A stretch of DNA of 48,176 bases from the NCBI GenBank assembly GCA_016181145.1, contig JACOZW010000022.1, positions 1-48,176 on the forward strand. The letters run 5' to 3'. Numbering within the stretch: position 1 is the first letter of the stretch; each line of letters begins with the position of its first letter. The translations under genes and the position numbers were made by a program. The notes beneath the pieces were generated by a model. It saw nothing but the letters and a program-made list of their open reading frames with translations, did no database searches and had not been told where the DNA came from. Source of the stretch: Candidatus Yanofskyibacteriota bacterium (lineage in GTDB: Bacteria; Patescibacteriota; Minisyncoccia; 2-02-FULL-40-12; GWA2-44-9). Below are positions 10,676 to 44,453 of the stretch, in pieces.

Positions 10676-12013
10676 TTGTCAATGCATAAGCTAAAAGAAA
10701 AAATAGATTATTATCGCCAGCACTGGTTTGTTAGGAGCGTGGCTACTCTTCAGGCCGGAAGTTTTGCCGGGACCTTGGTTCAGGCTCTTGCCGGCGTGTT
10801 TTTAGCACGATTGCTCCAGCCGGAGCTGTTTGGTGTTTATTCGCTCGCTTTTGGTTTGGCTAGTCTTGGTGGTTTGCTTTTAGGAGCAGGAACGCAGGAA
10901 GCTGTCTCGACTCTTTTAGGATCGGCCTATGCAAAACAAAACAGCGAAGAAGTGAAAGAGGCACTGGCATTTTTAATAAAGCTCACTCTTTACGCCGGAT
11001 TGATAACGATATTTCTTCTTTTATTTTTTCCGATGGTATCAAATTACTTCTATGGCGATCCGGCGATCGGGTGGTATGCTGGCATAGTTGTTCTGGCGGT
11101 ATTTTTGTCTAGCTCTTTCAGTGCAGTTGTCCAACTGGCCCTTCAGGTTTCCGGCCGGATAAAAATATTGACCTTAATTATTTTTGGTGACCAATTTTTA
11201 CGTTTTAGCATCTCACTACTGTTTGTCTTTTTAGGCCTGGGAGTTCTGGGTGCTGTAGCAGGTCAGTTTGTGGGGGCGGCAGTTATATTCGTTATATCGC
11301 TTTTTATCTGGGAGCGTTTACGGAGACAACATCCGATATTTCCATCGCTAAGAGGCCTAATAAGCGACATTAGGGAGGTCTCGGTACAAAAATATTTTGG
11401 TTTCAGTTTTTGGGTGGCTGTGGATAGAAATATAGGCAATCTATACATGGCTTTGCCTGTGGTTCTAACCGGTATTTATGTTTCTACCGGCGAGGTGTCT
11501 TTTTTTAAACTGGCCTTTGGCTTTGTTAACTTAGCATTAAGTCTTCTTGGTCCGATTTCAATGTTGCTTAATATTGAATTTCCGAAAATGCAGATTGAAG
11601 ATTCGGCAAAGTTTGCCAGGAATTTTGTTAGAGTTTCGGTTTACGGAGTTTTTCTTTCTTTGGGATTGACTTTGGCTGCTGTTATTGCCGCTCCTTTTGT
11701 TTTCAGGATTTTATATGGTGATAGTTTCTTGCCCAGCATAAAGTATATATTCGGACTATTTATTTACGGGGCTTTGTACGGGATAGGGGTCGGATTAGGA
11801 CCGATGTGGCGGGCCATTAATAAAGTTAAAGTTTCCATAGCCATCAATCTGATTATTTTGGGAGTAGGTATCCCGCTAGGCCTTTTGTTGATAAAGGGCT
11901 TTGGTTCGTGGGGCTCGGTAATAATGGTGACCTTATTGTTTACCGTGTCTCATTTTATATCGTTCATTTATCTGATGAGAGATTTAAAATTGAAATATCA
12001 AAATGGAAAATGA
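10676..12013 (+). CDS. oligosaccharide flippase / polysaccharide biosynthesis membrane protein (Wzx-like)
   Basis: ~12-14 TM protein; '[34 protein letters not shown]'. Confidence 0.8.
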
Positions 12014-12108
12014 CACTGTAAAATTATAAAATTTTAGGATTTTAGATTGTAATTTTAAACTTTGATTTTTGCATTTTAAACTAAATCCCTGTAATATAGA
12101 TAATTGCC

Positions 12109-14358
12109 ATGAGTATAAATAAAGACCCCATATTAGCAGTGATATTACGATACTTCATCTATGCGGCTGCTTTTGTGCCGCTTATTATATTTAATGATTA
12201 CGTCTCGCCGTTTCATTTCGGCAAGGTCATTATTCTCCGTAGTTTGGTTGAGGTTATGCTCGTGCTATTTATTCTGCTTATCTGGAAAGACAGGTCCTAC
12301 ATGCCCAAAATGAATAGTGTTGGTTGGTCATTTTTGCTCTTTGCAGCTGTTTTTTCCATCACCACAATAACTAGCGTAATTCCATATTCAAGCTTTTGGG
12401 GTTCGCTTGAGAGAATGGGAGGGGTTTTTACTTTTTGGCATTACTTTATCTACTTTATTATTTTAACCGCCGTCTTTCGAAAGGAATCAGACTGGATTAA
12501 TCTTTTCAGGTTAGTGATGGTTGTCGGTGTCATGTCAGCATTTTACGGCTTTGGCCAGAGAACCAACATTGCATGGATAGTCGGTTCGGGAGGGCGCGAA
12601 AGAATTTTTGGAACTATTGGAAACCCCGCCTTATTTGCAGGCTATCAAATCCTTTGTGCCTTTCTGGGCCTAACCCTCTTTTTCCGTAAGGGTAATTCCA
12701 TGAATTGGAAATTATTTTATGGAATTTTTTCGTTAATAACGGTTATTGCCGTTTTAATGACGGCTGTTCGAGGTTCTTTAGTCGGCGTAGGAGTTGGTTT
12801 TCTTTCTTTTGCTCTTTTATATACGGCGGCCTATAAATCAAAAAAGGCGAAAAAAATATTGCTCGGATTAATAACTCTTGCATTCCTATTCATTATCTCG
12901 GCTCTGCTTTTAAAAAATTCATCTTTAGTTCAGGGCTCTGGCTATCTGAAGCGCGTTACTGATTTTTCCCTAACAAGCTATACCGTTCAAACTCGATTCT
13001 GGGCTTGGGAGTCGGGCATAAAAGGCTGGAAAGAAACCCCAAAAACTATTATTTTCGGCTGGGGTCCTGAGAATTTTAATATTCCTTTCTCAAAATACTT
13101 TAATCCAAAGTTTTTTGGCGGTCCTGGCTCTGAAACGCTTTTTGACAGGGCCCACAATATGTTTGTTGAGGTTTTAGTTACTATGGGCCTTCTGGGTCTT
13201 GCGTCATATCTATATATATTTGCTTCAAGCCTCAGGGTTTTATGGAAAAAGATTCATGATGAGAATATGATTTTGTATGGTGTTGGCCTTATCCCTCTTC
13301 TGATAGCTTATGCCATCCATAATTCTTTTATTTTTGATACTTCGGCTAATTTCCTGGTTTTCTTCACTATTCTAGGATTTGTATCGCGTCTTGCGCAAGC
13401 TAAACCATTCGAAGTCAAGGCAGCTGAGACAAGGCCACGCAAAATTAATGAAGTCGCATGGTCTTTTTCGGCCATTATTTTGTTCATTTTTACTGGCGTG
13501 ATGATTTATCAGGTAAATATTCTTCCGGCAATAGCCAACTATGCCACCACTAGGGCGATTGTTGCTGGGTGGAATAAAGATTTTCCGGGTGCAATTGCAA
13601 AATATAAAGAGGTTATTGAGTATGATGTTCCCGGAAAATACGAGTACAGGCACAGGTTTGCACAGTATGTTCTCGAGCAGGCTCAGTCTAAAAAATTAAC
13701 CCCTGAATTAACAGATATAATATGGCTGGCGATTGGGGAGACGAAAAAGAATATTCAAGAAAACCCAGTTGATTATCTGCCGTATCTTTATACTGCCCGG
13801 CTCTATATAAATCTAGGCAAGGAAGATCCAAAATCTGAATATAATGATATTTCTTTAGAATTCTCACTTAAGGCGCTTGACCTGGCTCCTACTTTTATCA
13901 GGACTTATTACGAAGTTGCCCAGGCGTACCTAAATAAAAAGGATTATGAAAAAGCGATCGAATATTTTAAGGCAGCGGCCGAGCTTAACCCGGAAGCCGA
14001 AGTATCGTACTGGTATTGGGGTATTACGGAGATAGAGCGTGGTAATACAAACGAGGGTCTGGCTATAGTCGAGAGTATAGTTAGGACGGGCAAGTACATG
14101 GCATCAGAAAATGATCTTCGTCGGTTAGTCAACATTTATGTCAAGCAAAATAATTTACCGGGTGTAGTGTGGGTTTTCGAGCTTTTAGTACAGATTAGTC
14201 CTAGTGATCCTCAGTATCATGCGTCTTTGGCCTCTGCATACTCGCAAGTAGGTAAGATAGAGGAAGCCGTTGCTGAAGCTAAAACGGCTGCGAAGCTCGA
14301 TATAAAATTTGAAGCTGAGGCTAGGATGTTTGTTAACAATATTGGTGGACAGTGGTAA
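12109..14358 (+). CDS. O-antigen ligase-family membrane protein with C-terminal TPR repeats
   Basis: 'RIFGTIGNPALFAGYQ', 'HNMFVEVLVTMGLLGL', C-terminal 'AQAYLNKKDYEKAIEYFKAAAELNPEAEVSYW' TPR. Confidence 0.85.
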   Translation: MSINKDPILAVILRYFIYAAAFVPLIIFNDYVSPFHFGKVIILRSLVEVMLVLFILLIWKDRSYMPKMNSVGWSFLLFAAVFSITTITSVIPYSSFWGSLERMGGVFTFWHYFIYFIILTAVFRKESDWINLFRLVMVVGVMSAFYGFGQRTNIAWIVGSGGRERIFGTIGNPALFAGYQILCAFLGLTLFFRKGNSMNWKLFYGIFSLITVIAVLMTAVRGSLVGVGVGFLSFALLYTAAYKSKKAKKILLGLITLAFLFIISALLLKNSSLVQGSGYLKRVTDFSLTSYTVQTRFWAWESGIKGWKETPKTIIFGWGPENFNIPFSKYFNPKFFGGPGSETLFDRAHNMFVEVLVTMGLLGLASYLYIFASSLRVLWKKIHDENMILYGVGLIPLLIAYAIHNSFIFDTSANFLVFFTILGFVSRLAQAKPFEVKAAETRPRKINEVAWSFSAIILFIFTGVMIYQVNILPAIANYATTRAIVAGWNKDFPGAIAKYKEVIEYDVPGKYEYRHRFAQYVLEQAQSKKLTPELTDIIWLAIGETKKNIQENPVDYLPYLYTARLYINLGKEDPKSEYNDISLEFSLKALDLAPTFIRTYYEVAQAYLNKKDYEKAIEYFKAAAELNPEAEVSYWYWGITEIERGNTNEGLAIVESIVRTGKYMASENDLRRLVNIYVKQNNLPGVVWVFELLVQISPSDPQYHASLASAYSQVGKIEEAVAEAKTAAKLDIKFEAEARMFVNNIGGQW

Positions 14359-19527: not shown

Positions 19528-19555
19528 AAGCGCCCCCGAAAGGGCGCCTCACAGT
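19528..19555. terminator. hairpin terminator between convergent genes
   Basis: gaagcGCCCccgaaaGGGCgcctc. Confidence 0.5.
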
Positions 19556-20214
19556 CTGACGGAGCTGAAGAACGAGAGGATCTTATCCTGACTCGCTCCC
19601 CGGAGAGAGAATCCGAAGTGGATTCGGAAGATCTGCTGGAGATCTTTCTGTAGATTCTTAAGTTCATCACTCCAGCGGAAACCATCCTCGAATAGATCCT
19701 CTATGCCCATCATCAGGTAGGCGTTGGCTTCATCCAGCCAAACGGAAGGATGATAACCGGCCTTTTTCAGTGCCTGGGCGATTGATTCTGTTTGATTTTT
19801 CTCTAATTTCCGTAAAACCTCTTCTCTGTAATCGGGGACCGTGTAGTAGAGCCCGTGAACGAGCTCGTGTTTCACGGTGGGCAGGTCGATCCTGCTCCCG
19901 TATGTACCGATTAAGTAAAACGGTTCGGGCATGTCGGCGAGCAGCTCGAGCAGGCGTCGCTCTTTGATAGAAAGGGGATCAAACTTGCCTTCACGGAAAG
20001 GCTGAAGAATGGAAGATGGAATGTTGAATCCAGCCCAGTCTTCGTAGTAGGTGAACTCCCCTTCGTTTTCAGCAGTATACCAATCCATAAATTCCTCAAG
20101 TGAGAAGATCTCACCGCGGAATTTCGGACTTTCATAATGCTCTTGAAAACGCAGGAAAGTGGAGGTCAGCTGATACTGACTCTCCGTTCTGACGAGAACG
20201 AGATTGCCAGACAT
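19549..20214 (-). CDS. uncharacterised HExxH (putative zinc metallopeptidase) protein, paralog A
   Basis: 'KHELVHGLYYTVPDYREEVL' plus conserved 'DEANAYL'; homologous to 20314-21015. Confidence 0.65.
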   Translation of the reverse strand: MSGNLVLVRTESQYQLTSTFLRFQEHYESPKFRGEIFSLEEFMDWYTAENEGEFTYYEDWAGFNIPSSILQPFREGKFDPLSIKERRLLELLADMPEPFYLIGTYGSRIDLPTVKHELVHGLYYTVPDYREEVLRKLEKNQTESIAQALKKAGYHPSVWLDEANAYLMMGIEDLFEDGFRWSDELKNLQKDLQQIFRIHFGFSLRGASQDKILSFFSSVRL

Positions 20215-20313: not shown

Positions 20314-21015
20314 TTGCAATCCTATTCGGGTCTGCCAAGATGGGTCATGCAGAACTCCAAAGCCAATATTTATCTAATAGAATCTAAGAGTCGTCAAGAT
20401 TTGGCCGGGATGTTTATGCGCTTCCAGGAGCATTATGAGTCGCCCCAGTTCAAGGGCAAGGCTTTTACCATTGAGGAATTTGCTCACTGGTATGCTTCTA
20501 AATACGGGTCCTTTAGCTATGCTAAGGATTGGTATGGTTTTAATATACCCGGCACCGTCTTAGCTCCTTTTCGTTCCGGTAATTTTAATCCCTTAACTGA
20601 TAAAGAAAAAAAGCTGATGGAGCTATGTAAAAATGCCGGTGAGAATTCATATATAATCGGCGTGACTCCGTCCGCCGAATATTTTAAAGAGACGGTTCGG
20701 CATGAATTTGTCCACGGTGCTTTCTATATAAATTCAGATTATCGTAAAGAAGTTGAAGCTTGTGTTAAAAGCCAAAGAATCAGACCGATTGATACCGGAT
20801 TGAAGAAGATGGGTTATTGCGACGAAGTGGCGATCGATGAGACTAATGCTTACGTTCTGGTTGAGCCGGACACTGTGCAGGAATACGTATCCATCCGAAA
20901 CACCCAGAAACTTAGAGAGAGTTTGGATATGATTTTTCAAAAACATTTCGGATTCTCTCTTCTAGGAGTCGAGATTCCGGCATTGATGGCTAAGACTGAG
21001 CACGTATTAATATAG
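20314..21015 (+). CDS. uncharacterised HExxH protein, paralog B (start may be ATG at 20347)
   Basis: Shares 'MRFQEHYESPQFKGKAFTIEEFAHWYA', 'RHEFVHGAFYINSDYRKEVE', 'DETNAYV' with paralog A. Confidence 0.65.
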   Translation: MQSYSGLPRWVMQNSKANIYLIESKSRQDLAGMFMRFQEHYESPQFKGKAFTIEEFAHWYASKYGSFSYAKDWYGFNIPGTVLAPFRSGNFNPLTDKEKKLMELCKNAGENSYIIGVTPSAEYFKETVRHEFVHGAFYINSDYRKEVEACVKSQRIRPIDTGLKKMGYCDEVAIDETNAYVLVEPDTVQEYVSIRNTQKLRESLDMIFQKHFGFSLLGVEIPALMAKTEHVLI

Positions 21016-22865: not shown

Positions 22866-23360
22866 GTGGGTACGGCGTTTACAATCCGGCAATTAAGCAG
22901 TGAAAAATCTGTCAGTTCAGCAGATGACCAATCGCTTATTCTGCCAACCAGACGCGATGCCGTGTTGGTAAAAATTAATAAATTTAGGACAGAAAATCTA
23001 AAAGTTCGGCAATCAGATGAGAGTCAATACTTGGCTAAAAAAGTAGACTCACTATTTTTAAAGCTTTGCTTATCTAAGTTAGGCCTTTCGAGAGGACAAT
23101 TAGCTCAACTGGAACCGCAGGAACTTGAGGAGGTGGCCGCGGTCGTGTATCAGCAGTCTAGGCCGGTAGCCATTTCTCATGCATGTATTTTAGCATGCAT
23201 TCCCATAGCCGGTTGGATCATCTTGACAGCATCATTGTTGAATAGCAGACAGCCGGACTTAGATTTTTGGGTTAATATGCGGTACTACTTTTGGTATAGA
23301 AGAATGAAAAATAAATATGGTCAAGATTTTAAGCCTCAACCGGTCAACCAATATTACTAA
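22866..23360 (+). CDS. hypothetical protein with a hydrophobic segment and basic C-terminal tail (GTG start)
   Basis: ORF after aaggag RBS and promoter; 'MRYYFWYRRMKNKYGQDFKPQ' tail. Confidence 0.6.
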   Translation: MGTAFTIRQLSSEKSVSSADDQSLILPTRRDAVLVKINKFRTENLKVRQSDESQYLAKKVDSLFLKLCLSKLGLSRGQLAQLEPQELEEVAAVVYQQSRPVAISHACILACIPIAGWIILTASLLNSRQPDLDFWVNMRYYFWYRRMKNKYGQDFKPQPVNQYY

Positions 23361-35466: not shown

Positions 35467-35949
35467 ATGAAAAAAATTCTTATGGTTACGTCGATACTGG
35501 CAATTGTTGCCGGAATCGTTATGGTCGGGGGAGGAGTATGGGGAATTATATTTACATATAAAAATGTAGCTCAGGAGAAAATTACAACGCCGGCAGATGC
35601 TTCAATACCGAAAGCTCCGGTACTAGGTCCGCTTACGCTCAAGGCTCAGGCGGATATTATCAGGAAGCATACGCTCGAGACCACTGATGGTAAGGTTTTT
35701 GCTGAAATGCCGCGCCAGATTCAGAAGTTGGATGTTGACGGAAAGCCCGTTTTAGATGCTGACGGCAAACCGGTGATGACAGCAAATACCGCTCGTGATA
35801 TGTGGATAACAGCTACAACTCTAAATAACGCACTTAATTTAGGAATTATGGCGTATGCATTATCTAGTTTCATATTATTCTTAGGATTGGTGTTTGTCTG
35901 GATCGGAGCAGTTTTTTGCGTTCTAGGTAAACAAAAACCCGCTCTTTAA
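35467..35949 (+). CDS. hypothetical membrane protein with two TM segments
   Basis: ATG at 35467; N- and C-terminal hydrophobic segments flanking a soluble loop. Confidence 0.55.
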   Translation: MKKILMVTSILAIVAGIVMVGGGVWGIIFTYKNVAQEKITTPADASIPKAPVLGPLTLKAQADIIRKHTLETTDGKVFAEMPRQIQKLDVDGKPVLDADGKPVMTANTARDMWITATTLNNALNLGIMAYALSSFILFLGLVFVWIGAVFCVLGKQKPAL

Positions 35950-35960
35950 TGAGCGGGTGA
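35937..35960. terminator. bidirectional terminator overlapping convergent gene ends
   Basis: aaaACCCGCTCtttaatGAGCGGGT; same motif near 36711 and 38745. Confidence 0.7.
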
Positions 35961-35964
35961 TGGG

Positions 35965-36603
35965 CTATATTCTCTCTTGTCCTGGTAGATAGGAATCCTC
36001 GTCACTGAATGTCGGGCCTCGCCAGGCGTCGATGATGGAGCCAAATTCGGACCATGCACCGCCCTTTATTATATCAACAGTAAGAAAACATATTACGCCA
36101 TCGTTGCCTAACTGGTAATTACCCGCATCATCAATTGTTTGGCTGGCATTTAAAAGAAGCCTCTCTTTTTTATCGGCACCGGCTGCTTCTAGTATATTGA
36201 CTATTTTTCTGAGGACTCTTGGGGGAATGGGCCCGCATTCTTTTAGGTTTCTCCATCTCCATGAAATATGGCCATATTTTCTAGATAGGTTTTCTGCCTG
36301 TTTGTTCAAAATAGTGTTGGTTGCTGTATGGTTATAACGACGACAACCTGTCCGTTTTAGGATTTGTAACATCCATAGCCCCGATAAAGATTTATTGCTG
36401 TGCCCTGATTGCTCGGCAAGTTTTATGTATTCATCAAGCTCCTGATCCGTTATTTTTAAGACTATGTCTTCTGGTTCTGGCACTACAAGCTCACCATCAT
36501 CCCTGATCAAATCCGCCGAGGGCGCCTGAACTGTTGCCAGGGCAGTTGTTTGCTTGCCCCGTAGTTTTGAAAGAACTCCCATCTTGGTTCCTCTCTTAAG
36601 CAT
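35965..36603 (-). CDS. six-member paralog array, gene 6 (single-gene unit)
   Basis: N-term 'LSKLRGKQTTALATVQAPSADLIRDD', C-term 'SIIDAWRGPTFSDEDSYLPGQERI'. Confidence 0.85.
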   Translation of the reverse strand: MLKRGTKMGVLSKLRGKQTTALATVQAPSADLIRDDGELVVPEPEDIVLKITDQELDEYIKLAEQSGHSNKSLSGLWMLQILKRTGCRRYNHTATNTILNKQAENLSRKYGHISWRWRNLKECGPIPPRVLRKIVNILEAAGADKKERLLLNASQTIDDAGNYQLGNDGVICFLTVDIIKGGAWSEFGSIIDAWRGPTFSDEDSYLPGQERI

Positions 36604-36605
36604 TC

Positions 36606-36645
36606 AATCTGGCCAGATTCTATAGTATAAATGCTGAATTGTCAA
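36606..36645 (-). promoter_or_regulatory. promoter plus palindromic operator-like site upstream of paralog 6
   Basis: minus strand TTGACA-17-TAGAAT overlapping AATCTGGCCAGATT (36606-36619). Confidence 0.7.
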
Positions 36646-36705
36646 GGTAGATATGACACACCCCGATTTCGCAGGAGGATAGCTATTAAACAGAGTTCAA
36701 AAAAC

Positions 36706-36728
36706 CCGCTCTTTAATAGGCGGGTGAT
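36706..36728 (-). terminator. terminator of the paralog 3-4-5 unit
   Basis: aaaacCCGCtctttaataGGCGGgt, same location relative to the gene end as the other units. Confidence 0.6.
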
Positions 36729-36731
36729 GGA

Positions 36732-37382
36732 CTATATTCTCTCTTGTCCTGGTAGATAGGACTCCTCGTCACTGAAGGTCGGACCACGCCAGGCGTCGAT
36801 GATGAATCCATCTCGATCACTTCTGCTATCCTGTGTAAGTCCTAATCCAAGAAGAAATGTTAATGTCTTATGGGCCGTATAGGCGCCGACTGATTTATCA
36901 TATTCCCTCTCCAATATCCCTGATATAGTAAATTGGAGATCATCTGGGTGGGTAAAGTTGCTTCTAATCTCGTTTATTTTGTTGACAATCCTTGGCGGGA
37001 TAGGAGGACCGTAAGATGTATAATCGCACGTATCAGTTCTGCATATATAAATAGATCTATTACGATTTTTTTTACGAAGGTATTTTTGGGTTTTATGTTC
37101 AAAATCTGAAAGTTTCTCTTTGCCATACTGCTTACAGCCCAGCTTTATTAAGAGGTGACGAAGCCTTTCTTTTTTTAGTCCAAAGCTTTGGTAGTCCGCA
37201 TTATTTATAAGCTCCATATATCTTGCCAGTTCTTCGGGACTATGTTGGCATTCTATTTCTACCATTTTTGGTAATTCTGGTTCTGTATCATCCCTGATCA
37301 AATCCGCCGACGGCGCTTTAACCAATGCCGAATCCTGTGTTTGCGACTGGCTTTTTCTTCGAAACAATGTCATTACACTCAT
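36732..37382 (-). CDS. six-member paralog array, gene 5
   Basis: 'MSVMTLFRRKSQSQTQDSALVKAPSADLIRDD' ... 'FIIDAWRGPTFSDEESYLPGQERI'. Confidence 0.85.
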   Translation of the reverse strand: MSVMTLFRRKSQSQTQDSALVKAPSADLIRDDTEPELPKMVEIECQHSPEELARYMELINNADYQSFGLKKERLRHLLIKLGCKQYGKEKLSDFEHKTQKYLRKKNRNRSIYICRTDTCDYTSYGPPIPPRIVNKINEIRSNFTHPDDLQFTISGILEREYDKSVGAYTAHKTLTFLLGLGLTQDSRSDRDGFIIDAWRGPTFSDEESYLPGQERI

Positions 37383-37990
37383 ATCTTCGCCTCCTCATCG
37401 CTGAAGGTCGGACCACGCCAGGCGTCGATGATGACCCTCCATGGCTTTGGAGGATAGCCACTATTCCCATCTAATTTCAGAAAGCAAATTTCTTGTCTTT
37501 CTTTCTTTTCTTTCTGCGGAACTTCTTGAATGTCGGTTATCCAGAAAAAGACTGTTTTTTCTTGGATGCCTTCAATATTGTCTTTTATTTTGTTTAGCTT
37601 TTTCAGCACACCGAGCGGAAGTGGCTTTTTATATTCATCGAGACGCCTCCAATCCCATATCAGATCTCTCCTGGTTGTTTTTCCTAAGCACATTGCCTGT
37701 CTATCCATAAAGGACCTAACCTCTTCTGGGTCATAATAACAAAAATTGCCCAGTTTTAACTTCCATAGCATTTCTTCTCTAAAGATTATGGGGGGAAAAT
37801 ATTCTAAATATTTTGCAAGGATAGTATATTCACTAAATTTATCCATCGGAATTTCACATTGTATTTCTCTTGGTTCGGGTATGACCAACTCATTATCTCC
37901 CCTTATCAAATCCGCCGAGGGCGCTTTAACCAATGCCGAATCCTGCGTTTGCAACCTGCTCTTTCTTCGAAACAATGTCATTACACTCAT
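37379..37990 (-). CDS. six-member paralog array, gene 4
   Basis: 'MSVMTLFRRKSRLQTQDSALVKAPSADLIRGD' ... 'VIIDAWRGPTFSDEEAKI'; ATGA overlap with gene 5. Confidence 0.85.
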   Translation of the reverse strand: MSVMTLFRRKSRLQTQDSALVKAPSADLIRGDNELVIPEPREIQCEIPMDKFSEYTILAKYLEYFPPIIFREEMLWKLKLGNFCYYDPEEVRSFMDRQAMCLGKTTRRDLIWDWRRLDEYKKPLPLGVLKKLNKIKDNIEGIQEKTVFFWITDIQEVPQKEKKERQEICFLKLDGNSGYPPKPWRVIIDAWRGPTFSDEEAKI

Positions 37991-38622
37991 ATCTTCGCCT
38001 CCTCATCACTGAAGGTCGGACCACGCCAGGCGTCGATGATGAGAGATTCTTCTTCGGGTGCGTCACTGCTTACGGCGACTTTCAGGAAACATATTTCGGT
38101 TCCGCGTTTCATGGGGATAACTCTTAATTTATTATTTCTATTTTCAGTATTTACTTTTCCATCATAGCGGTAAGTTACCCATACGATGTCTGAAACAAAA
38201 AATAGTAAATTTCTATCCATGGTAGCTACAGTCTTTACTACTCTATATGGCAGGGGATGTCGGTATTCTTTAATATCGACCCATTGCCACCAAAGATCAT
38301 CTCCGAGATGAAGGGTGCGGTGTGCGTACTCTATGTATCGCTTCATGAAACTGTCTACTTCTGATTTAGTATAAACCCTAAAATTCTCATATTTTAAGCG
38401 GTGTAGTAACTTTTCTCTACTGACAGCTACTTCGGGTAATCTATAACAGAAATTGGTTGTCTGGGTATAAGTGGTTAATTTTTTTGAATCCATCTCGGGT
38501 TCTATCTCTCTTGGTTCTGGGCACCATAACTCATTATCATCCCTGATCAAATCCGCCGAGGGTGCTTGAACTGTTGCCAGGGCAGTTGTTTGCTTGCCCC
38601 GTAGTTTTGAAAGAACTCCCAT
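37987..38622 (-). CDS. six-member paralog array, gene 3
   Basis: 'MGVLSKLRGKQTTALATVQAPSADLIRDD' ... 'LIIDAWRGPTFSDEEAKI'; ATGA overlap with gene 4. Confidence 0.85.
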   Translation of the reverse strand: MGVLSKLRGKQTTALATVQAPSADLIRDDNELWCPEPREIEPEMDSKKLTTYTQTTNFCYRLPEVAVSREKLLHRLKYENFRVYTKSEVDSFMKRYIEYAHRTLHLGDDLWWQWVDIKEYRHPLPYRVVKTVATMDRNLLFFVSDIVWVTYRYDGKVNTENRNNKLRVIPMKRGTEICFLKVAVSSDAPEEESLIIDAWRGPTFSDEEAKI

Positions 38623-38645
38623 CTCAGTTCCTCTCTAGAGTATTC

Positions 38646-38685
38646 AATCTGGCCAGATTTTATAGTATAAATGCTGAATTGTCAA
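38646..38685 (-). promoter_or_regulatory. promoter plus palindromic operator-like site upstream of paralog 3
   Basis: minus strand TTGACA-17-TAAAAT overlapping AATCTGGCCAGATT (38646-38659). Confidence 0.7.
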
Positions 38686-38742
38686 GGTAAGCGAACTGGT
38701 AGATATTGACACACCCCAATTCCGTTAAGCAGAGTTCAAAAA

Positions 38743-38766
38743 ACCCGCTCTTTAATGAGCGGGTGA
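38743..38766 (-). terminator. terminator of the paralog 1-2 unit
   Basis: aacCCGCTCtttaatGAGCGGgt. Confidence 0.65.
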
Positions 38767-38770
38767 TGGA

Positions 38771-39448
38771 CTATACTCTCTCTTGTCCTGGTAGATAGGA
38801 CTCCTCATCACTGAATGTCGGGCCTCGCCAGGCGTCGATGATGAGCGTCCAGCGCTTTTCATAACCAGCACAGCTACCATAAGTTGCAAATAACTCTATC
38901 CCCAAAAAGCAAATCAATGATTTATCATCAACGATTACACGATATACGCCTGGGTGGGATATATCTGAGATTGTAAATCTTCCATAAGGATCGCAGTTCC
39001 CCCCAAAGTAACAATAGTCAGATTCTCTTTGCAATTGTTTTACCAATTTCATAATTCGGGCCGGGATTGGCTCTTCGTATTTAGATATGCCGGTTATTGG
39101 CCGCCATAGCACTTGGAGATTGCCCCGTTGAGCGGTCTTTTCATAGTAACTCGTCTGTTTTTCGAGCAGGGTGTTAACTTTAGCACCTGGGTATAGACGA
39201 ATATTGTTATTCACTAGAATCCGAATAACGTCTTGATGTATAAAGCTGACGTTATCGAATTTTCCGCGGCCACCAATCAAGTCTTGATATGCATTAAATT
39301 CTTCCGTATCCATGTGTTTTGGAACATAGGTTTCGGGAAGGACCAACTCATTATCTCCCCTAATCAAATCCGCTGATGGCGCTTGAATCAAGGCTAAACT
39401 CTGTGATTGCGGCTGGCTCTTTCTTCGAAACAATGTCATCGCGCTCAT
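38771..39448 (-). CDS. six-member paralog array, gene 2
   Basis: 'MSAMTLFRRKSQPQSQSLALIQAPSADLIRGD' ... 'LIIDAWRGPTFSDEESYLPGQERV'. Confidence 0.85.
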   Translation of the reverse strand: MSAMTLFRRKSQPQSQSLALIQAPSADLIRGDNELVLPETYVPKHMDTEEFNAYQDLIGGRGKFDNVSFIHQDVIRILVNNNIRLYPGAKVNTLLEKQTSYYEKTAQRGNLQVLWRPITGISKYEEPIPARIMKLVKQLQRESDYCYFGGNCDPYGRFTISDISHPGVYRVIVDDKSLICFLGIELFATYGSCAGYEKRWTLIIDAWRGPTFSDEESYLPGQERV

Positions 39449-40113
39449 ATCTTCGCCTCCTCATCACTGAATGTCGGGCCTCGCCAGGCGTCGATGATGA
39501 GAGATTCTGCAATAGGTGTACTTTCATTTGCAGTAACCCTAAGAAAACATATTTCCGTTTTTCGTTTCATGGGAATAATTTGCCATTGCTGAATGCGCTG
39601 ACCCGTATTTTCACAGTTATAGTGTGTGCGGGAAGTTACCCAAACAATATCTGAAATAAAAAATCTAAAATAGTTTCGCGAATACCCTTCTGCATTAGCG
39701 TGGGATATTTTTTTTACATAGTCGATTACTCTGGGAGGAAGGGGATGGCTGTATTCTCGGAGATTGATCCATTCCCACCAAAGATCGTCACCCAGCTTAA
39801 GGGTTCTAGATGCATATTTTATACATTGTCGCATGCAATTAGCCACCCCTGAGTGATTATAAGTTCTTAGATTCAGGGTCTTTAGGAGATGCAATAATTT
39901 TTCTCTGGCTATGACTGAGGTTTGGGCGTCAAGTGCTAAGTCATCGATCGCTCGGACATATTCGGCTAACTTCTCCGGTGCAATCTCTAGCTCTATCTCT
40001 TTCGGTTCTGGGCACCATAACTCATTATCATCTCTGATCAAATCTGCTGACGGCGCCTGAACTGTTGCCAGGGCAGTTGTTTGCTTGCCCCGTAGTTTTG
40101 AAAGAACTCCCAT
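39445..40113 (-). CDS. six-member paralog array, gene 1
   Basis: 'MGVLSKLRGKQTTALATVQAPSADLIRDD' ... 'LIIDAWRGPTFSDEEAKI'; ATGA overlap with gene 2. Confidence 0.85.
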   Translation of the reverse strand: MGVLSKLRGKQTTALATVQAPSADLIRDDNELWCPEPKEIELEIAPEKLAEYVRAIDDLALDAQTSVIAREKLLHLLKTLNLRTYNHSGVANCMRQCIKYASRTLKLGDDLWWEWINLREYSHPLPPRVIDYVKKISHANAEGYSRNYFRFFISDIVWVTSRTHYNCENTGQRIQQWQIIPMKRKTEICFLRVTANESTPIAESLIIDAWRGPTFSDEEAKI

Positions 40114-40136
40114 CTCAGCTCCTCTCCAGAGTATTC

Positions 40137-40176
40137 AATCTGGCCAGATTTTATAGTATAAATGCTGAATTGTCAA
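40137..40176 (-). promoter_or_regulatory. promoter plus palindromic operator-like site upstream of paralog 1
   Basis: minus strand TTGACA-17-TAAAAT overlapping AATCTGGCCAGATT (40137-40150). Confidence 0.7.
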
Positions 40177-40184
40177 GGTGGGTA

Positions 40185-40213: not shown

Positions 40214-40253
40214 CTTGTCGCGTGACCGAACATGTAGTTTCGAGGAGGAACAG

Positions 40254-40550
40254 ATGGCGGACAGAACTTTGACAAAAAAAGACGTACTTACCTTCCTGAA
40301 TCTGGGGAGGAAAATTGCTGTTTCTGGTGCCGGAGCAGTATTGGATACGGCAAAGTCAAAAATTGCCGATTTGATCGACTCGGACGAGGCTTTGCAGAGG
40401 CGGGTTGAAGCTCAGGTCCAAGCTCTACTTAGAGCCGGTTTTACTGAACTAGAAGCCCGCAAAGCTGTTTTTGACCGTATGAGGACTCGTATAGATAATG
40501 CCTTTCAAAAAAGCGCCAATCCTATCGGCGATAATATCGTAAAGAAGTAA
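40254..40550 (+). CDS. small hypothetical protein (98 aa) starting MADRTLTKKDV
   Basis: gaggagg RBS, ATG at 40254. Confidence 0.65.
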   Translation: MADRTLTKKDVLTFLNLGRKIAVSGAGAVLDTAKSKIADLIDSDEALQRRVEAQVQALLRAGFTELEARKAVFDRMRTRIDNAFQKSANPIGDNIVKK

Positions 40551-40567
40551 GGAAAAAAGGAGAAACC

Positions 40568-41548
40568 ATGGCCACTCAGAGTCTCACTCGTCGTGCGGGA
40601 GCAGGCAGTTCTATGTCGCGCCGCTCAGATATGAAGTTGTTTATCGATCGGGCGGTCCAGGATGGTGTCAGAGACATCAAGGAAAGTGCTGAAGCGCTGA
40701 AGAGCTTAGATGGCGACTTGCGTCGGGAGCTGGATGTCCCATTAGATAGAACTAAGAGCATGATGGCCAAGGTATTAAATATGGTTATTCCCAAGCGTTT
40801 TTATTCGGATTTGCCGAACAGCCTTGTTAGATACATGGGTGAAGCACAGGATGTTATTATTCAGATAGGCTCAGATAAGAGGCATCACTGTAATAATATA
40901 CAAATAGGCCTCCGAAATTTGTACGATGCCGCGAATGCCAAAAAGGAGCAATTGGCAGAATTAAGAGCTACAATAGAAACGGCTCAAAGAGAAAATTGGA
41001 ATGCGAGACAGCTTCAGGAATACATGACTAAAAGTGTCGGGATAGAGGTCTTTAGGGAGATAAGTGATCTTCTCGACGAAGAGTTTGGTATTCTTGGAGA
41101 AGAAGAGCAGGAGGCCAGAAAGCAGCAGCTTCTTGATCAGCTACATAATGCTACTGTTGGCGGCGAAAGATTTATGAAGTTGATGGCCGGTGTTGTATCA
41201 GCGGGCTTATCGGTTTTCTCAGCAGGGGTTGCAAGCTATTTCGAATACGAGCTATTTGAGCACGATACCATTCAATTGAGGGAAGCGGCCAAGGCATTTG
41301 TCGACGTTAATAAGGGGATATATGCCGGCCGGGCGGCTATTACTGGTACGATAACAACTTCTATTGATGGTATTCGCAAGGCTGTCAAAATGGCCGAATT
41401 GTACAATAAGTGCTCTCTTTTTTCAGATGATTTCTTGGAAGTTTTGGATGAGGCGGAAGAGCTGGTTAGCAAGGATATCAAGTCTCTTGACAACCCCTCG
41501 AGCAAACGGAAAGAATTACCCGTTATCGATGTTGTCCCTGTAAGTTAG
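40568..41548 (+). CDS. hypothetical helical/coiled-coil-rich protein with a hydrophobic segment
   Basis: aaaggag RBS; 326 aa; 'FMKLMAGVVSAGLSVFSAGVASYF'. Confidence 0.65.
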   Translation: MATQSLTRRAGAGSSMSRRSDMKLFIDRAVQDGVRDIKESAEALKSLDGDLRRELDVPLDRTKSMMAKVLNMVIPKRFYSDLPNSLVRYMGEAQDVIIQIGSDKRHHCNNIQIGLRNLYDAANAKKEQLAELRATIETAQRENWNARQLQEYMTKSVGIEVFREISDLLDEEFGILGEEEQEARKQQLLDQLHNATVGGERFMKLMAGVVSAGLSVFSAGVASYFEYELFEHDTIQLREAAKAFVDVNKGIYAGRAAITGTITTSIDGIRKAVKMAELYNKCSLFSDDFLEVLDEAEELVSKDIKSLDNPSSKRKELPVIDVVPVS

Positions 41549-41552
41549 TTTT

Positions 41553-41583
41553 CTAACCCCGCCATCGGCGGGGCTTTAATTTG
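41553..41583 (+). terminator. intrinsic terminator
   Basis: CCCCGCCatcGGCGGGGctttaattt. Confidence 0.8.
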
Positions 41584-41610
41584 ACATAATTATATAAATT
41601 ATATATAATA
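41582..41610 (+). promoter_or_regulatory. sigma70-type promoter for the rhomboid-like gene
   Basis: TTGACA-17-TATAAT. Confidence 0.75.
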
Positions 41611-41646
41611 TTAACCAGTTTTATTCACAATCAGGGAGATTGAGGC

Positions 41647-42228
41647 ATGGGGATTATCGGTCGGATCTTGAGGCAGACTAGGGTTAGTTACAATGCGCCG
41701 GTGATACTAACTTTTACGGTTATGGCATCAGCTGTTTTTGCTCTGTTTAGCATTACGGGAACTTCGTTTTATCATTTGTTTTCTGCTCCTACGGAGTTTA
41801 GGCTTTTTTCTCCGATCACATATTTCCGTTTTGTATCTCATATCTTGGGGCATCAAAGCATGCAGCATTTATCGGGGAATTTTATGATCATATTGTTGAT
41901 CGGACCGTTGGTAGAGGAAAAATACTCATCATTTTCACTGTTGTTGATGATAGTAATTACCGCTTTAGCGACAGGAATTCTTAATATAATACTATTTTCT
42001 ACCAGCTTAATGGGTGCAAGTGGTATCGTCTTTATGCTTATCATTTTGAGCTCACTAACTAATTTTAGAAGGAGAGAGATTCCATTGACATTTTTGCTGG
42101 TCATAACTATTTTCTTGGGTAATGAGGTGATAAGCAGTTTTAACAGCGACAATATATCGCAGTTTGCCCATATCTTGGGCGGTATATGCGGTGCTGGATT
42201 CGGATTATTTTTCGTGAATAAAAGATAA
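41647..42228 (+). CDS. rhomboid-family intramembrane serine protease
   Basis: 'HILGHQSMQHLSGNFMIILLIGPLVEE', catalytic 'GASGIVFML', C-terminal 'AHILGGICGAGFG'. Confidence 0.82.
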   Translation: MGIIGRILRQTRVSYNAPVILTFTVMASAVFALFSITGTSFYHLFSAPTEFRLFSPITYFRFVSHILGHQSMQHLSGNFMIILLIGPLVEEKYSSFSLLLMIVITALATGILNIILFSTSLMGASGIVFMLIILSSLTNFRRREIPLTFLLVITIFLGNEVISSFNSDNISQFAHILGGICGAGFGLFFVNKR

Positions 42229-42243
42229 AATGAACAGGCTCTT

Positions 42244-42275
42244 TCAAGTTCCTCAACGGAGGAACTTTTTGTTTG
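42244..42275 (+). terminator. intrinsic terminator
   Basis: AAGTTCCTCaacgGAGGAACTTtttgttt. Confidence 0.8.
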
Positions 42276-42278
42276 GGA

Positions 42279-42308
42279 TTGACTTTAGTGGTAAATTATA
42301 GTATGATA
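42279..42308 (+). promoter_or_regulatory. sigma70-type promoter for 42333
   Basis: TTGACT-17-TATGAT. Confidence 0.65.
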
Positions 42309-42332
42309 TTATCGGACTAGAAAGGAGACGCA

Positions 42333-42857
42333 ATGATGACCAGAACAGTTGCTAGAACTTCTTGGCAGTATGGTCTTTACAAATTTGCATACCCTGAGCT
42401 CAAAAGACTTGAGCGGGGGGTTACTGGAGAAAAAACCGTGACAGAATTACCCGATCGGTTACTTGCTTGCCATTATCGAGGAACGATTATTTTCGGCTTT
42501 TTTCTAAAGATGGTTACTGTATGGGATGACCTTAGGATAAGGTCTGAATCATTCTTGACAAGATACTTGTCAAGAAAACTCGCCAGGATATTGTCTATGC
42601 TACCTATCGCGGCGCTTTATGTTCTGGTGCTCTCTTTGATGATGGTAGCTGATAAAAATCCCTATTTAAATGAGCATCCCGTCACAGATCCAAGCTTGAT
42701 ACCAGTAATCTTTGCCATGCAGTCGTTGTTTGTCTTTATGATAATTGGCATACCTATTTTTGCAATCATAGCAATTAAGTGCAAATGGCCGCTAAAGCAT
42801 TGGATTGCCACTTTGGAAAAAAAGATTTGTGGCACAGAGATAGAATTTGTTGATTAA
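42333..42857 (+). CDS. hypothetical two-TM membrane protein
   Basis: aaaggag RBS; hydrophobic segments 'LSMLPIAALYVLVLSLMMV' and 'MQSLFVFMIIGIPIFAIIAI'. Confidence 0.6.
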   Translation: MMTRTVARTSWQYGLYKFAYPELKRLERGVTGEKTVTELPDRLLACHYRGTIIFGFFLKMVTVWDDLRIRSESFLTRYLSRKLARILSMLPIAALYVLVLSLMMVADKNPYLNEHPVTDPSLIPVIFAMQSLFVFMIIGIPIFAIIAIKCKWPLKHWIATLEKKICGTEIEFVD

Positions 42858-42869
42858 TCTGGGTCTCAG

Positions 42870-42895
42870 GCTCCGCCATCGCGGAGCTTTTTGTT
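42870..42895 (+). terminator. intrinsic terminator
   Basis: GCTCCGCcatcGCGGAGCtttttgttt. Confidence 0.8.
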
Positions 42896-42896
42896 T

Positions 42897-42984
42897 GGGG
42901 TTGACCCTGTAGTGAATTTTCCAATTGCCTTCGGCTTCTACCTGCCAAAAGGCAGGTATTTGAAAAATCTACTACGGGGTTGAC
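42897..42984. mobile_element. putative ~70-bp MITE-like palindromic insertion between copies of GGGGTTGAC
   Basis: GGGGTTGAC at 42897-42905 and 42976-42984; inverted GTAGT..ACTAC and ATTTTC..GAAAAAT arms; inner TACCTGCCaaaaGGCAGGTA hairpin. Confidence 0.5.
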
Positions 42985-43008
42985 GCCCCCTGATTTTTAT
43001 GTATAATA
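42980..43008 (+). promoter_or_regulatory. sigma70-type promoter for 43048
   Basis: TTGACG-16-TATAAT. Confidence 0.65.
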
Positions 43009-43047
43009 CTAGCAATTGAGCGGGTCTTTGAAAAAAGAGGAGAGAGT

Positions 43048-43719
43048 GTGTCTAGCAGAACTTTGACGAAAGAAAGAGTAAAAACCTCGGTATCGCTCGG
43101 AGATCTGGATATCAATTCAGGTACATCGAGTCTGGAGCTGATTGATGATGGGCCGAATGAGGCAGTTTGCCGGCTTGTCAGCAAATTTCAGCAAGCGAAT
43201 CAGCAAGCTAATCATAGGGAAGCATTAGAACGGCAAGCAAGGGGTCTAGCGATTAACGAGATGGCTTCCAAACAAAATCTTGCCAGCATGTTTATCGATG
43301 CATACACCTACGCATTCAATATTACAATAAATCAAATGGGAGTATTGGTGCAGGAGATTGGAGAGAATAATCTGCCATTTCTAGAGAATAAACTATTTGA
43401 AAGACTCAGGAAGAGAGCGGGGGTAATAGTTAGTGCGAGCATTATTTCTGGAGGAGCTTTTACGGTTGATCTAATAGACATCTTTTCGTCTGGGAGTCTT
43501 GTTTTGCTACCACTTCCGTTATTCATGGTATGTTTTTTGGGCTGGATACTACCATTTTTGGTTCTTGTTTCTTCGGGTACGGCGCGGTCAGAACCTTTCA
43601 GATCGGTTTCATACATAAGGGCTAGAAAGCGCCTCAAGAAAAAGTACGGCCCAGATTACTTTCCGTATCAGGAATTGAGGAAAGAATTGAGATTGGCAGA
43701 AAGTGTAAGCGGGGAGTAG
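43048..43719 (+). CDS. hypothetical protein with TM hairpin and basic C-terminal tail (GTG start)
   Basis: promoter, gaggagag RBS; 'MSSRTLTKERV' N-term, 'ARKRLKKKYGPDYFPYQ' tail. Confidence 0.6.
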   Translation: MSSRTLTKERVKTSVSLGDLDINSGTSSLELIDDGPNEAVCRLVSKFQQANQQANHREALERQARGLAINEMASKQNLASMFIDAYTYAFNITINQMGVLVQEIGENNLPFLENKLFERLRKRAGVIVSASIISGGAFTVDLIDIFSSGSLVLLPLPLFMVCFLGWILPFLVLVSSGTARSEPFRSVSYIRARKRLKKKYGPDYFPYQELRKELRLAESVSGE

Positions 43720-43721
43720 GC

Positions 43722-44453
43722 ATGCCTGGAAGCGTGGAAACTGTGGAAATTATTGATTATAAAGAAGCCCTGAAGAGAATAAGAATTCTAAAAACTGAAT
43801 TATTAAATAAACTAGCTGTTCTCGATAAGTCAAAGGGCGAGTCTTTCTGGCTCAGCCTCTATGTTCTGGCCATTTGTGCTCAGGAACGGCTGATTTCTTC
43901 GTTAAATGACGAGCTGATATCTTCCAGTATTCCTTGGGACATGGAATCTAACCTCCCATTAATTTCTGCTACGATTGGTGATGCTGTAAGCTATGCTGAA
44001 AGACTGAGAGATCCGAAAGATTATCTCCTTAAAGCACTGCTTTTGTCTCTCTCGGGATGGACATTATTGAGTACGGAGAAAAGAGAATGTGCCTGTAATA
44101 AAAATAAACTTCAGGAAATATCGGTTGATGTCTTGGCCCAGACTAATGTTCAGATAATGAAAATTTCCAAAGAGCAGCCGTTGGGTTGGCCATATATTGA
44201 TGTTAATTTTCTTATCGGTGTTCAGTCTGATAACCAAGATCATTTAGGACATCATTATAGTTTCAAGGAGCAAAGCATAAGGCATCAGGATCTGATTATT
44301 ATTTTTAGCTCTAAGGGGGCAATGTTCAGAGGTGCAAGCAGTAGGGAGATTATCCGGTATCAGAAAGGGGTTCGTCAGGCTGAGCAGTTTAGGACCGATA
44401 AAATGGCGGGAATCCTAAGCGGGCTAGTTAATTCTTTCAACAAAGCGGCATGA
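43722..44453 (+). CDS. hypothetical protein, likely translationally coupled to 43048
   Basis: ORF begins 3 nt after the upstream ORF end; 243 aa. Confidence 0.6.
   Translation: MPGSVETVEIIDYKEALKRIRILKTELLNKLAVLDKSKGESFWLSLYVLAICAQERLISSLNDELISSSIPWDMESNLPLISATIGDAVSYAERLRDPKDYLLKALLLSLSGWTLLSTEKRECACNKNKLQEISVDVLAQTNVQIMKISKEQPLGWPYIDVNFLIGVQSDNQDHLGHHYSFKEQSIRHQDLIIIFSSKGAMFRGASSREIIRYQKGVRQAEQFRTDKMAGILSGLVNSFNKAA

Follow-up and report, generated by a model that had tools for sequence, protein, structure and literature searches.

Six genes standing in tandem on the minus strand of a contig from a Candidatus Yanofskyibacteriota bacterium (JACOZW010000022.1, positions 1 to 48,176, hereafter the window) form an array at 35965-40113 in which strongly diverged cores are set between ends that follow the position of each gene in its transcription unit. 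The genetics of this array are well supported: three fixed kinds of DNA block, which we call sockets, carry the ends and the expression signals, and the ends are kept alike by recombination. The array also borders a co-conserved accessory island characterized by an unnamed pair of genes, A and B. What the arrangement serves is less secure, and our preference is tentative. It is quite possible that the slots make up a cassette array within a hypervariable island of accessory genes, and that the array supplies an epibiont-type bacterium with a set of proteins for recognition or conflict.

The six genes, numbered g1 to g6 by the order of transcription, are intact open reading frames (ORFs) in three transcription units of two, three and one genes. 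Unit 1 begins with g1 (39445-40113, 222 amino acids, aa) and ends with g2 (38771-39448, 225 aa); unit 2 runs from g3 (37987-38622, 211 aa) through g4 (37379-37990, 203 aa) to g5 (36732-37382, 216 aa); and unit 3 consists solely of g6 (35965-36582), which is first and last at once and measures 205 aa if begun at the conserved ATG; a start farther upstream gives the 212 aa of the listed ORF. Invariant residues cluster toward both ends of the proteins, within ~35 positions of the start and ~15 of the end, and the segments APSADLIR and IIDAWRGPTFSDE are invariant across all six proteins. The pattern of the C-terminal block (C-block) occurs six times in the query genome (G000; 0.95 Mb, 92% complete), every time inside the array, which, together with the repeat families described below, takes the resemblance beyond chance. 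These six adjacent ORFs and their shared blocks had been reported in a preliminary description of the window, and it was also right about the two N-terminal types, the two C-terminal types, the genes that overlap by ATGA, the terminators that close the units, and the grouping into 1-2, 3-4-5 and 6.

The distribution of the end types follows a simple rule. N-type 1 (MGVLSKLRGKQTT) is restricted to the unit-first genes g1, g3 and g6, and N-type 2 (MS[VA]MTLFRRKS) to the later genes g2, g4 and g5. C-type 1 (EEAKI, with an ATGA overlap into the next gene) is found only where another gene lies downstream, as in g1, g3 and g4, and C-type 2 (ESYLPGQER[IV], reading ESYLPGQERV in g2) only ahead of a terminator, as in g2, g5 and g6. 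The single-gene unit g6 combines N-type 1 with C-type 2, just as the rule requires. The end types are dictated wholly by slot and not by core.

A repeat search that was blind to genes returned exactly three families of direct repeats, each with three copies on the minus strand (80-93% identity to the reference copy). Block D1 (216 nucleotides, nt) contains the promoter, a palindrome and the N-type-1 5' end, and spans the starts of g1 (39964-40179), g3 (38473-38688) and g6 (36433-36648), each copy being marked by the promoter 25-mer. Block D2 (177 nt), recovered by repeat search and alignment, joins the C-type-1 3' end and the ATGA to the N-type-2 5' end of the next gene, at the g1/g2 (39332-39508), g3/g4 (37874-38050) and g4/g5 (37266-37442) junctions. 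Block D3 (120 nt) carries the C-type-2 3' end and a rho-independent terminator, and follows g2 (38725-38844), g5 (36686-36805) and g6 (35919-36038); repeat search and alignment agree on all of these, and terminator prediction adds to them after g2 and g6. Taken together, the repeat families and the slot-bound ends indicate that the array alternates cores with sockets of three kinds.

Along g1-g6 (15-codon windows), mean pairwise nucleotide identity begins at 0.70-0.81, falls mostly to 0.35-0.5 in the core and reaches 0.91 in the C-block. The reported contrast between nearly identical terminal DNA and differing cores is borne out by these values, with the correction that the ends do differ at synonymous sites (g1 and g3 are separated in the N-block by 6 synonymous and 0 amino-acid changes over 27 codons). 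By the Nei-Gojobori method, synonymous divergence (dS) in the N1 block is 0.33 for g1-g3, 0.20 for g1-g6 and 0.09 for g3-g6, and in the N2 block it is 0.27 for g4-g5, whereas dS in the cores of the same pairs is 1.3-1.9. Overall, synonymous divergence is mostly 0.09-0.36 in same-slot ends versus 1.2-2.3 in cores, a difference found in each of six same-slot comparisons (P = 7e-7 to 2e-3, Fisher tests on synonymous counts). Because purifying selection at the protein level cannot reduce synonymous divergence, the ends must have been homogenised by recombination. Furthermore, three linked synonymous differences in the C-block separate g1, g2 and g6 from g3, g4 and g5, so that the C-block haplotype tracks physical position and crosses both tail types, which is the pattern expected of local gene conversion. 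The low dS of same-slot ends and the positional haplotypes thus support the view, already put forward in the preliminary description, that the socket ends are kept alike by recombination or gene conversion and not by protein constraint alone. Homogenisation is incomplete, since g2 stands farther apart in its N2 block, with dS of 0.6-0.7 to g4 and g5. The N-terminal tags are also under purifying selection on the protein: the N1 blocks of g1, g3 and g6 differ by 2-6 synonymous and 0 nonsynonymous changes.

The cores have a different history. Their protein identity ranges from 17% (g5-g6) to 48% (g1-g3), and they are near synonymous saturation, so they are either old or were brought in by exchange; the description of the family as recently amplified therefore fits the ends and not the cores. 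The ratio of nonsynonymous to synonymous divergence (dN/dS) in the core is ~0.35 for g1-g3, the sole pair not near saturation, and 0.5-0.75 in most of the rest, in which dS approaches saturation and is unreliable.

The three units have an exact promoter 25-mer in common (TTGACA...TATACTATA), which is present in 3 copies genome-wide and only in the array, even when searched at <=3 mismatches. A perfect 14-bp palindrome, AATCTGGCCAGATT, overlaps or follows the -10 region at 40137-40150, with copies at 38646-38659 and 36606-36619; exact copies within the window are confined to those three places. This palindrome is a candidate operator, and it is reasonable to suppose that a shared repressor may act on the three units.

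The preliminary description overlooked the main context of the array, which is the A/B island. Unit 1 is divergent from the unit that begins with a small gene ahead of A, the two promoters standing back to back. The island in the window (40215-44453) is transcribed from the plus strand and starts with this small helical protein (40254-40550), which has a weak UBA-like match (PF22562, E 5e-4, below cut-off). It is followed by A (40568-41548), a helical protein of ~340 aa; a rhomboid-family intramembrane protease (41647-42228; Pfam Rhomboid); an orphan protein with two transmembrane (TM) segments by TM scan (42333-42857); a membrane-hairpin protein that matches the profile of an island family, C, at E 3.9e-9 (43048-43719); and B (43722-44453), of ~245 aa. 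Homologues of A were found in 12 of the 387 genomes sampled from the class, which we take to be Paceibacteria, and they are spread over several families; B lies within a few kilobases of A in 12/12 loci. Apart from the window, A/B loci include L037 (9997-12491), L063-L068, L085, L087, L088 and L089, and G003 offers a partial contig with an A fragment only. The small helical protein before A and family C are recurrent parts of the island, and the query and the distant genome G287 each have a rhomboid protease between A and B (52% identical). Among the island genes tested, the rhomboid was the only one to receive a name from Pfam, NCBIfam, PHROGs or PADLOC. A likeness of A to TelA noticed by eye was dropped, as 0/8 A members matched TelA.

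The space between A and B provides what we take as the best evidence that replacement of cores goes with the island. In the sister species G030 and G033 it holds a gene family, var8, other than that of the array. When the two species are compared (L067 8263-8733 versus L068 4353-5290), a 302-nt stretch with the promoter and the first ~110 coding bases has 87% identity, and a shared 3' end runs on into B as conserved sequence, but the intervening core cannot be aligned. The slot contains one gene in G030 versus two in G033. The lone G030 gene begins like the first of the G033 pair and ends like the second, and so obeys the slot rule just as g6 does. A test for homology between var8 and the array family was negative, there being no profile link and an hhalign probability of 0.3%. 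The var8 genes, which lie between or beside A and B in G030, G033 and G201, are like the array in their island position, tandem overlapping genes, conserved ends, replaced cores and varying copy number, yet have no detectable sequence homology to it. These findings suggest that slot-wise replacement of cores may be a property of the island rather than of one gene family.

The array family was detected in 6/387 class genomes including the query, and the five others carry diverged homologues, usually in single copy. Profile A1, built from g1-g6, matches G175 (E 4.6e-7), G287 (5.9e-5) and G157 (4e-4), and when enlarged with those relatives it finds strong matches in G082 and G195. Profile A3, built from the relatives without any window sequence, matches four window genes (E 6.7e-7 to 7.3e-6). 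Since A1 and A3 find each other's members, the family link is reciprocal. The homologues belong to Portnoybacteria (L053/L046), Sungbacteria (L054/L035), G157, G287 and G195; in G157, two array-family genes lie downstream of both B and A and in the same direction. Motifs common to the family are WxWR.LR..D, VP..VL, FFVSD and [IV][IV]F..W.EPSF, and in an alignment of 10 sequences P13, P23, L63, P131 and W180 are invariant, with F151, F164, P183 and F185 conserved at 90%. The C-terminal motif of the relatives reads IVFDVWDEPSF or similar, and IIDAWRGPTFSDE is thus the local version of a family feature. The relatives resemble the array in these motifs and, by reciprocal profiles, as a family at the level of the fold, but they occur as a single copy or an unhomogenised pair without slot-type ends, and they have an insert of roughly 20-40 residues after W.WR that is absent from the window copies.

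The six proteins had been called orphans. They remain so with respect to named families, as no credible match was found in Pfam, NCBIfam, PHROGs, PADLOC or PDB sequences, but not within the class, where the reciprocal profiles find homologues in five other genomes with the C-block in the form [IV][IV]..xWxEPSF. Matches to Myosin-2 and DNA polymerase IV among PDB sequences were dismissed as chance, and so were all Foldseek matches (E > 0.05 with TM < 0.25). Peptide scans of IMG/VR and the genome collection with the six window proteins returned zero relatives, because the conserved ends of these proteins are local; the profile search worked instead. Two AlphaFold models, of moderate confidence and built on shallow alignments (mean-confidence score pLDDT 70.6 and 67.0; predicted template-modelling score pTM 0.68 and 0.63), both place helices before beta-strands and have a disordered N-terminus, the N-terminal 28 residues falling below pLDDT 50; we make no claim of a new fold. 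A crude hydropathy scan detected no TM segment in g1-g6 and no hydrophobic stretch at the N-terminus. Profiles and models together portray the array protein as probably soluble, of ~200 aa and class-restricted, with a disordered conserved N-tag, a core that is predicted to be helical and then beta-stranded, and a conserved C-terminal strand and tail.

Several other features of the island and the window were observed. The island genes after A (41581-43007) each have a strong promoter-like site, the one at 41581 scoring 12/12 to consensus, and a terminator-like stem, and thus look like separate transcription units. A itself is 28% identical between the same-genus genomes G043 and G029 (L065 687-1721 versus L066 9571-10614), where flanking genes are 64-94% identical, an apparent replacement of the A allele. 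In G001 (L063 421-4781), the A/B module adjoins homologues of window genes 10676-14358 (65-70% identity) that in the window are ~26 kb apart from it, so either the island or its flanks have moved. Many non-array island proteins (L085 3790-12768, L067, L068, L087, L063, L089) begin with a short motif, V[KR]x[TS]xxE..L (e.g., LVKPTPFEEL, IVRQSRKEIVL), which was recovered with modest support by leave-one-lineage-out training (P = 3e-4 to 3e-7 in four lineages, not in G157) and may serve these proteins as a shared tag for docking or targeting. Equating the APSADLIR block with this motif was not borne out, as no array match exceeded the control maximum in an in-register search. A stray member of family C lies 17 kb off the island (22866-23360, plus strand). 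Elsewhere in the window, a divergent pair of paralogues with 43% identity (19549-20214, minus strand, and 20314-21015, plus strand) carries the sequences HELVHG and HEFVHG, which resemble the HExxH sites of zinc metallopeptidases.

How might such an array work? The sockets, being present in three copies of each kind, could serve as homology arms. Recombination between them would homogenise the ends, and whole cores could be gained, lost or replaced with the promoter, the translational coupling and the terminator left intact. We infer exchange of cassettes because a like difference in copy number and core is visible between G030 and G033 at the equivalent slot, in a different family. The conserved tags may dock to a shared partner, plausibly the island proteins A and B, and each variable core would then meet a different outside target, be it a rival cell, a host cell or a phage. 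A role in recognition or conflict is, at modest confidence, the one we consider most likely, given the hypervariability, the patchy distribution, the tandem repertoire and the island context. Patescibacteria are epibionts of other bacteria (e.g., PMC12102498). On a broader scale it is conceivable, if rather doubtful, that the A/B island with its exchangeable slots represents a system for conflict or interaction between cells that has not been described before in Paceibacteria, in which fixed proteins (the small helical protein, A, B, hairpin protein C and sometimes a rhomboid) would operate with a repertoire of tagged proteins that swap their cores as cassettes, and different lineages would fill the same slot with unrelated core families.

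Several observations weigh against a repertoire of recognition or conflict proteins. The array yielded no functional domain, catalytic motif, secretion signal, or solved or predicted structural relative, so that its role is deduced from context, just as docking of the tags is deduced from conserved disorder. The array family was not found in the same-genus genomes G001-G003, and exchange at this array was not seen directly. Although the array family and A occur together in 3/6 array-family genomes versus 12/387 for A overall (hypergeometric P = 4e-4; 7e-3 without the query), this test involves six genomes that are not phylogenetically independent and is uncorrected for phylogeny. In G082, G175 and G195 the family is single-copy with housekeeping-looking neighbours and no A detected, which fits an ordinary cellular role equally. 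Finally, core dN/dS among the six genes is <1 (Nei-Gojobori) and no positive selection was demonstrated; the preliminary description, which had the cores diversifying, had itself named purifying selection in the core as contrary evidence, and the value for g1-g3 partly supplies it.

The main rival explanation draws on the same observations. It holds that this is an ordinary array of paralogues subject to gene conversion at the ends only, that is, six subfunctionalised cellular proteins whose cores drift or adapt to different internal partners, with no repertoire and no role in conflict; constraint on translation signals would help conversion to keep the ends alike. The low core dN/dS of the closest pair and the three single-copy homologues in ordinary contexts are in its favor, and the homogenised ends are also where promoter, coupling and terminator have their place. 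We nevertheless consider it somewhat unlikely. The range of core identities is extreme for six copies within one genome of this size. Conserved ends and replaced cores recur at this place of the island in var8, an apparently unrelated family, which suggests that the pattern belongs to the locus, and under the rival explanation a link to A/B would be unexpected. A second explanation would see in g1-g6 six immunity or antidote proteins that act against neighbours' toxins, on the model of orphan immunity arrays, and small, soluble, strongly diverged tandem proteins with coupled expression and a shared candidate operator would suit it. However, the array and its surroundings yielded neither a toxin gene nor a secretion component nor any known immunity domain, and immunity arrays are not known to share both ends, which makes this explanation improbable.

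Defense against phages deserves similar consideration, as the cores could sense different phage proteins with A/B or the rhomboid acting downstream. The patchy accessory distribution of A, the hypervariability and the co-directional small genes with strong promoters of their own are what one would expect of such a system. Yet no PADLOC match (E <= 0.1) was obtained for the array, A or B, the lone weak match in the island (43048-43719, PDC-M02B, E 1.5e-5) spans 49 residues, and Pfam detects no nuclease or NTPase there; we regard an anti-phage array as quite improbable. We disfavor most of all, as very improbable, a remnant of a virus or mobile element with moron-like cassettes. The promoter and terminator of each island unit could be explained in this way, as could the patchy distribution and the different chromosomal places of the island across genera, but no relatives were found in IMG/VR scans, phage records or, for B, plasmids, there was no PHROG match, and the island is stable in the loci of genus g18 and g19.

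The slot-organised array is of interest beyond this genome. Keeping the ends of arrayed genes and exchanging their middles is an established route to a repertoire, but here a whole gene with promoter, coupling and terminator is split into three reusable sockets. Six diverged copies should be costly to keep in a genome of <1 Mb. The A/B island is common to distant families of an uncultivated class and absent from most of its members, and cores are replaced there in the same fashion in an apparently unrelated family. If its slots do trade cores, they would mark where reduced, largely host-dependent bacteria place variable interaction genes.

No description of the array or of the A/B island was found in the literature. 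The array was compared with known systems of sequence variation. A target of a diversity-generating retroelement was rejected, as the 92% complete query genome has no match to reverse transcriptase (PF00078), and so was a dedicated local recombinase, the single tyrosine recombinase of the genome being on another contig. Polymorphic toxin systems and the displacement of Rhs C-termini (PMC3482391, PMC2935791) share with the array the modular swap of a variable part beside a conserved part by homologous recombination. They have one conserved end and a variable C-terminal toxin with an immunity gene, whereas in the array both ends are conserved and the middle varies. No Pfam or NCBIfam family of toxin, trafficking or immunity domains was found above cut-off in g1-g6, and the island genes tested yield Rhomboid only. 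Another likeness is to antigen cassette families with conserved flanks and a hypervariable center, such as VlsE of Borrelia. The Msp2 cassettes of Anaplasma, a family of the same kind, share with the array conserved flanks, hypervariable centers and gene conversion (PMC2789410). In both antigen families, silent partial cassettes feed one expression site of a surface protein. Unlike these, g1-g6 have no predicted export signal or membrane anchor in the crude hydropathy scan, and all six are complete, full-length ORFs with expression signals of their own, provided by three identical promoters and three terminators.

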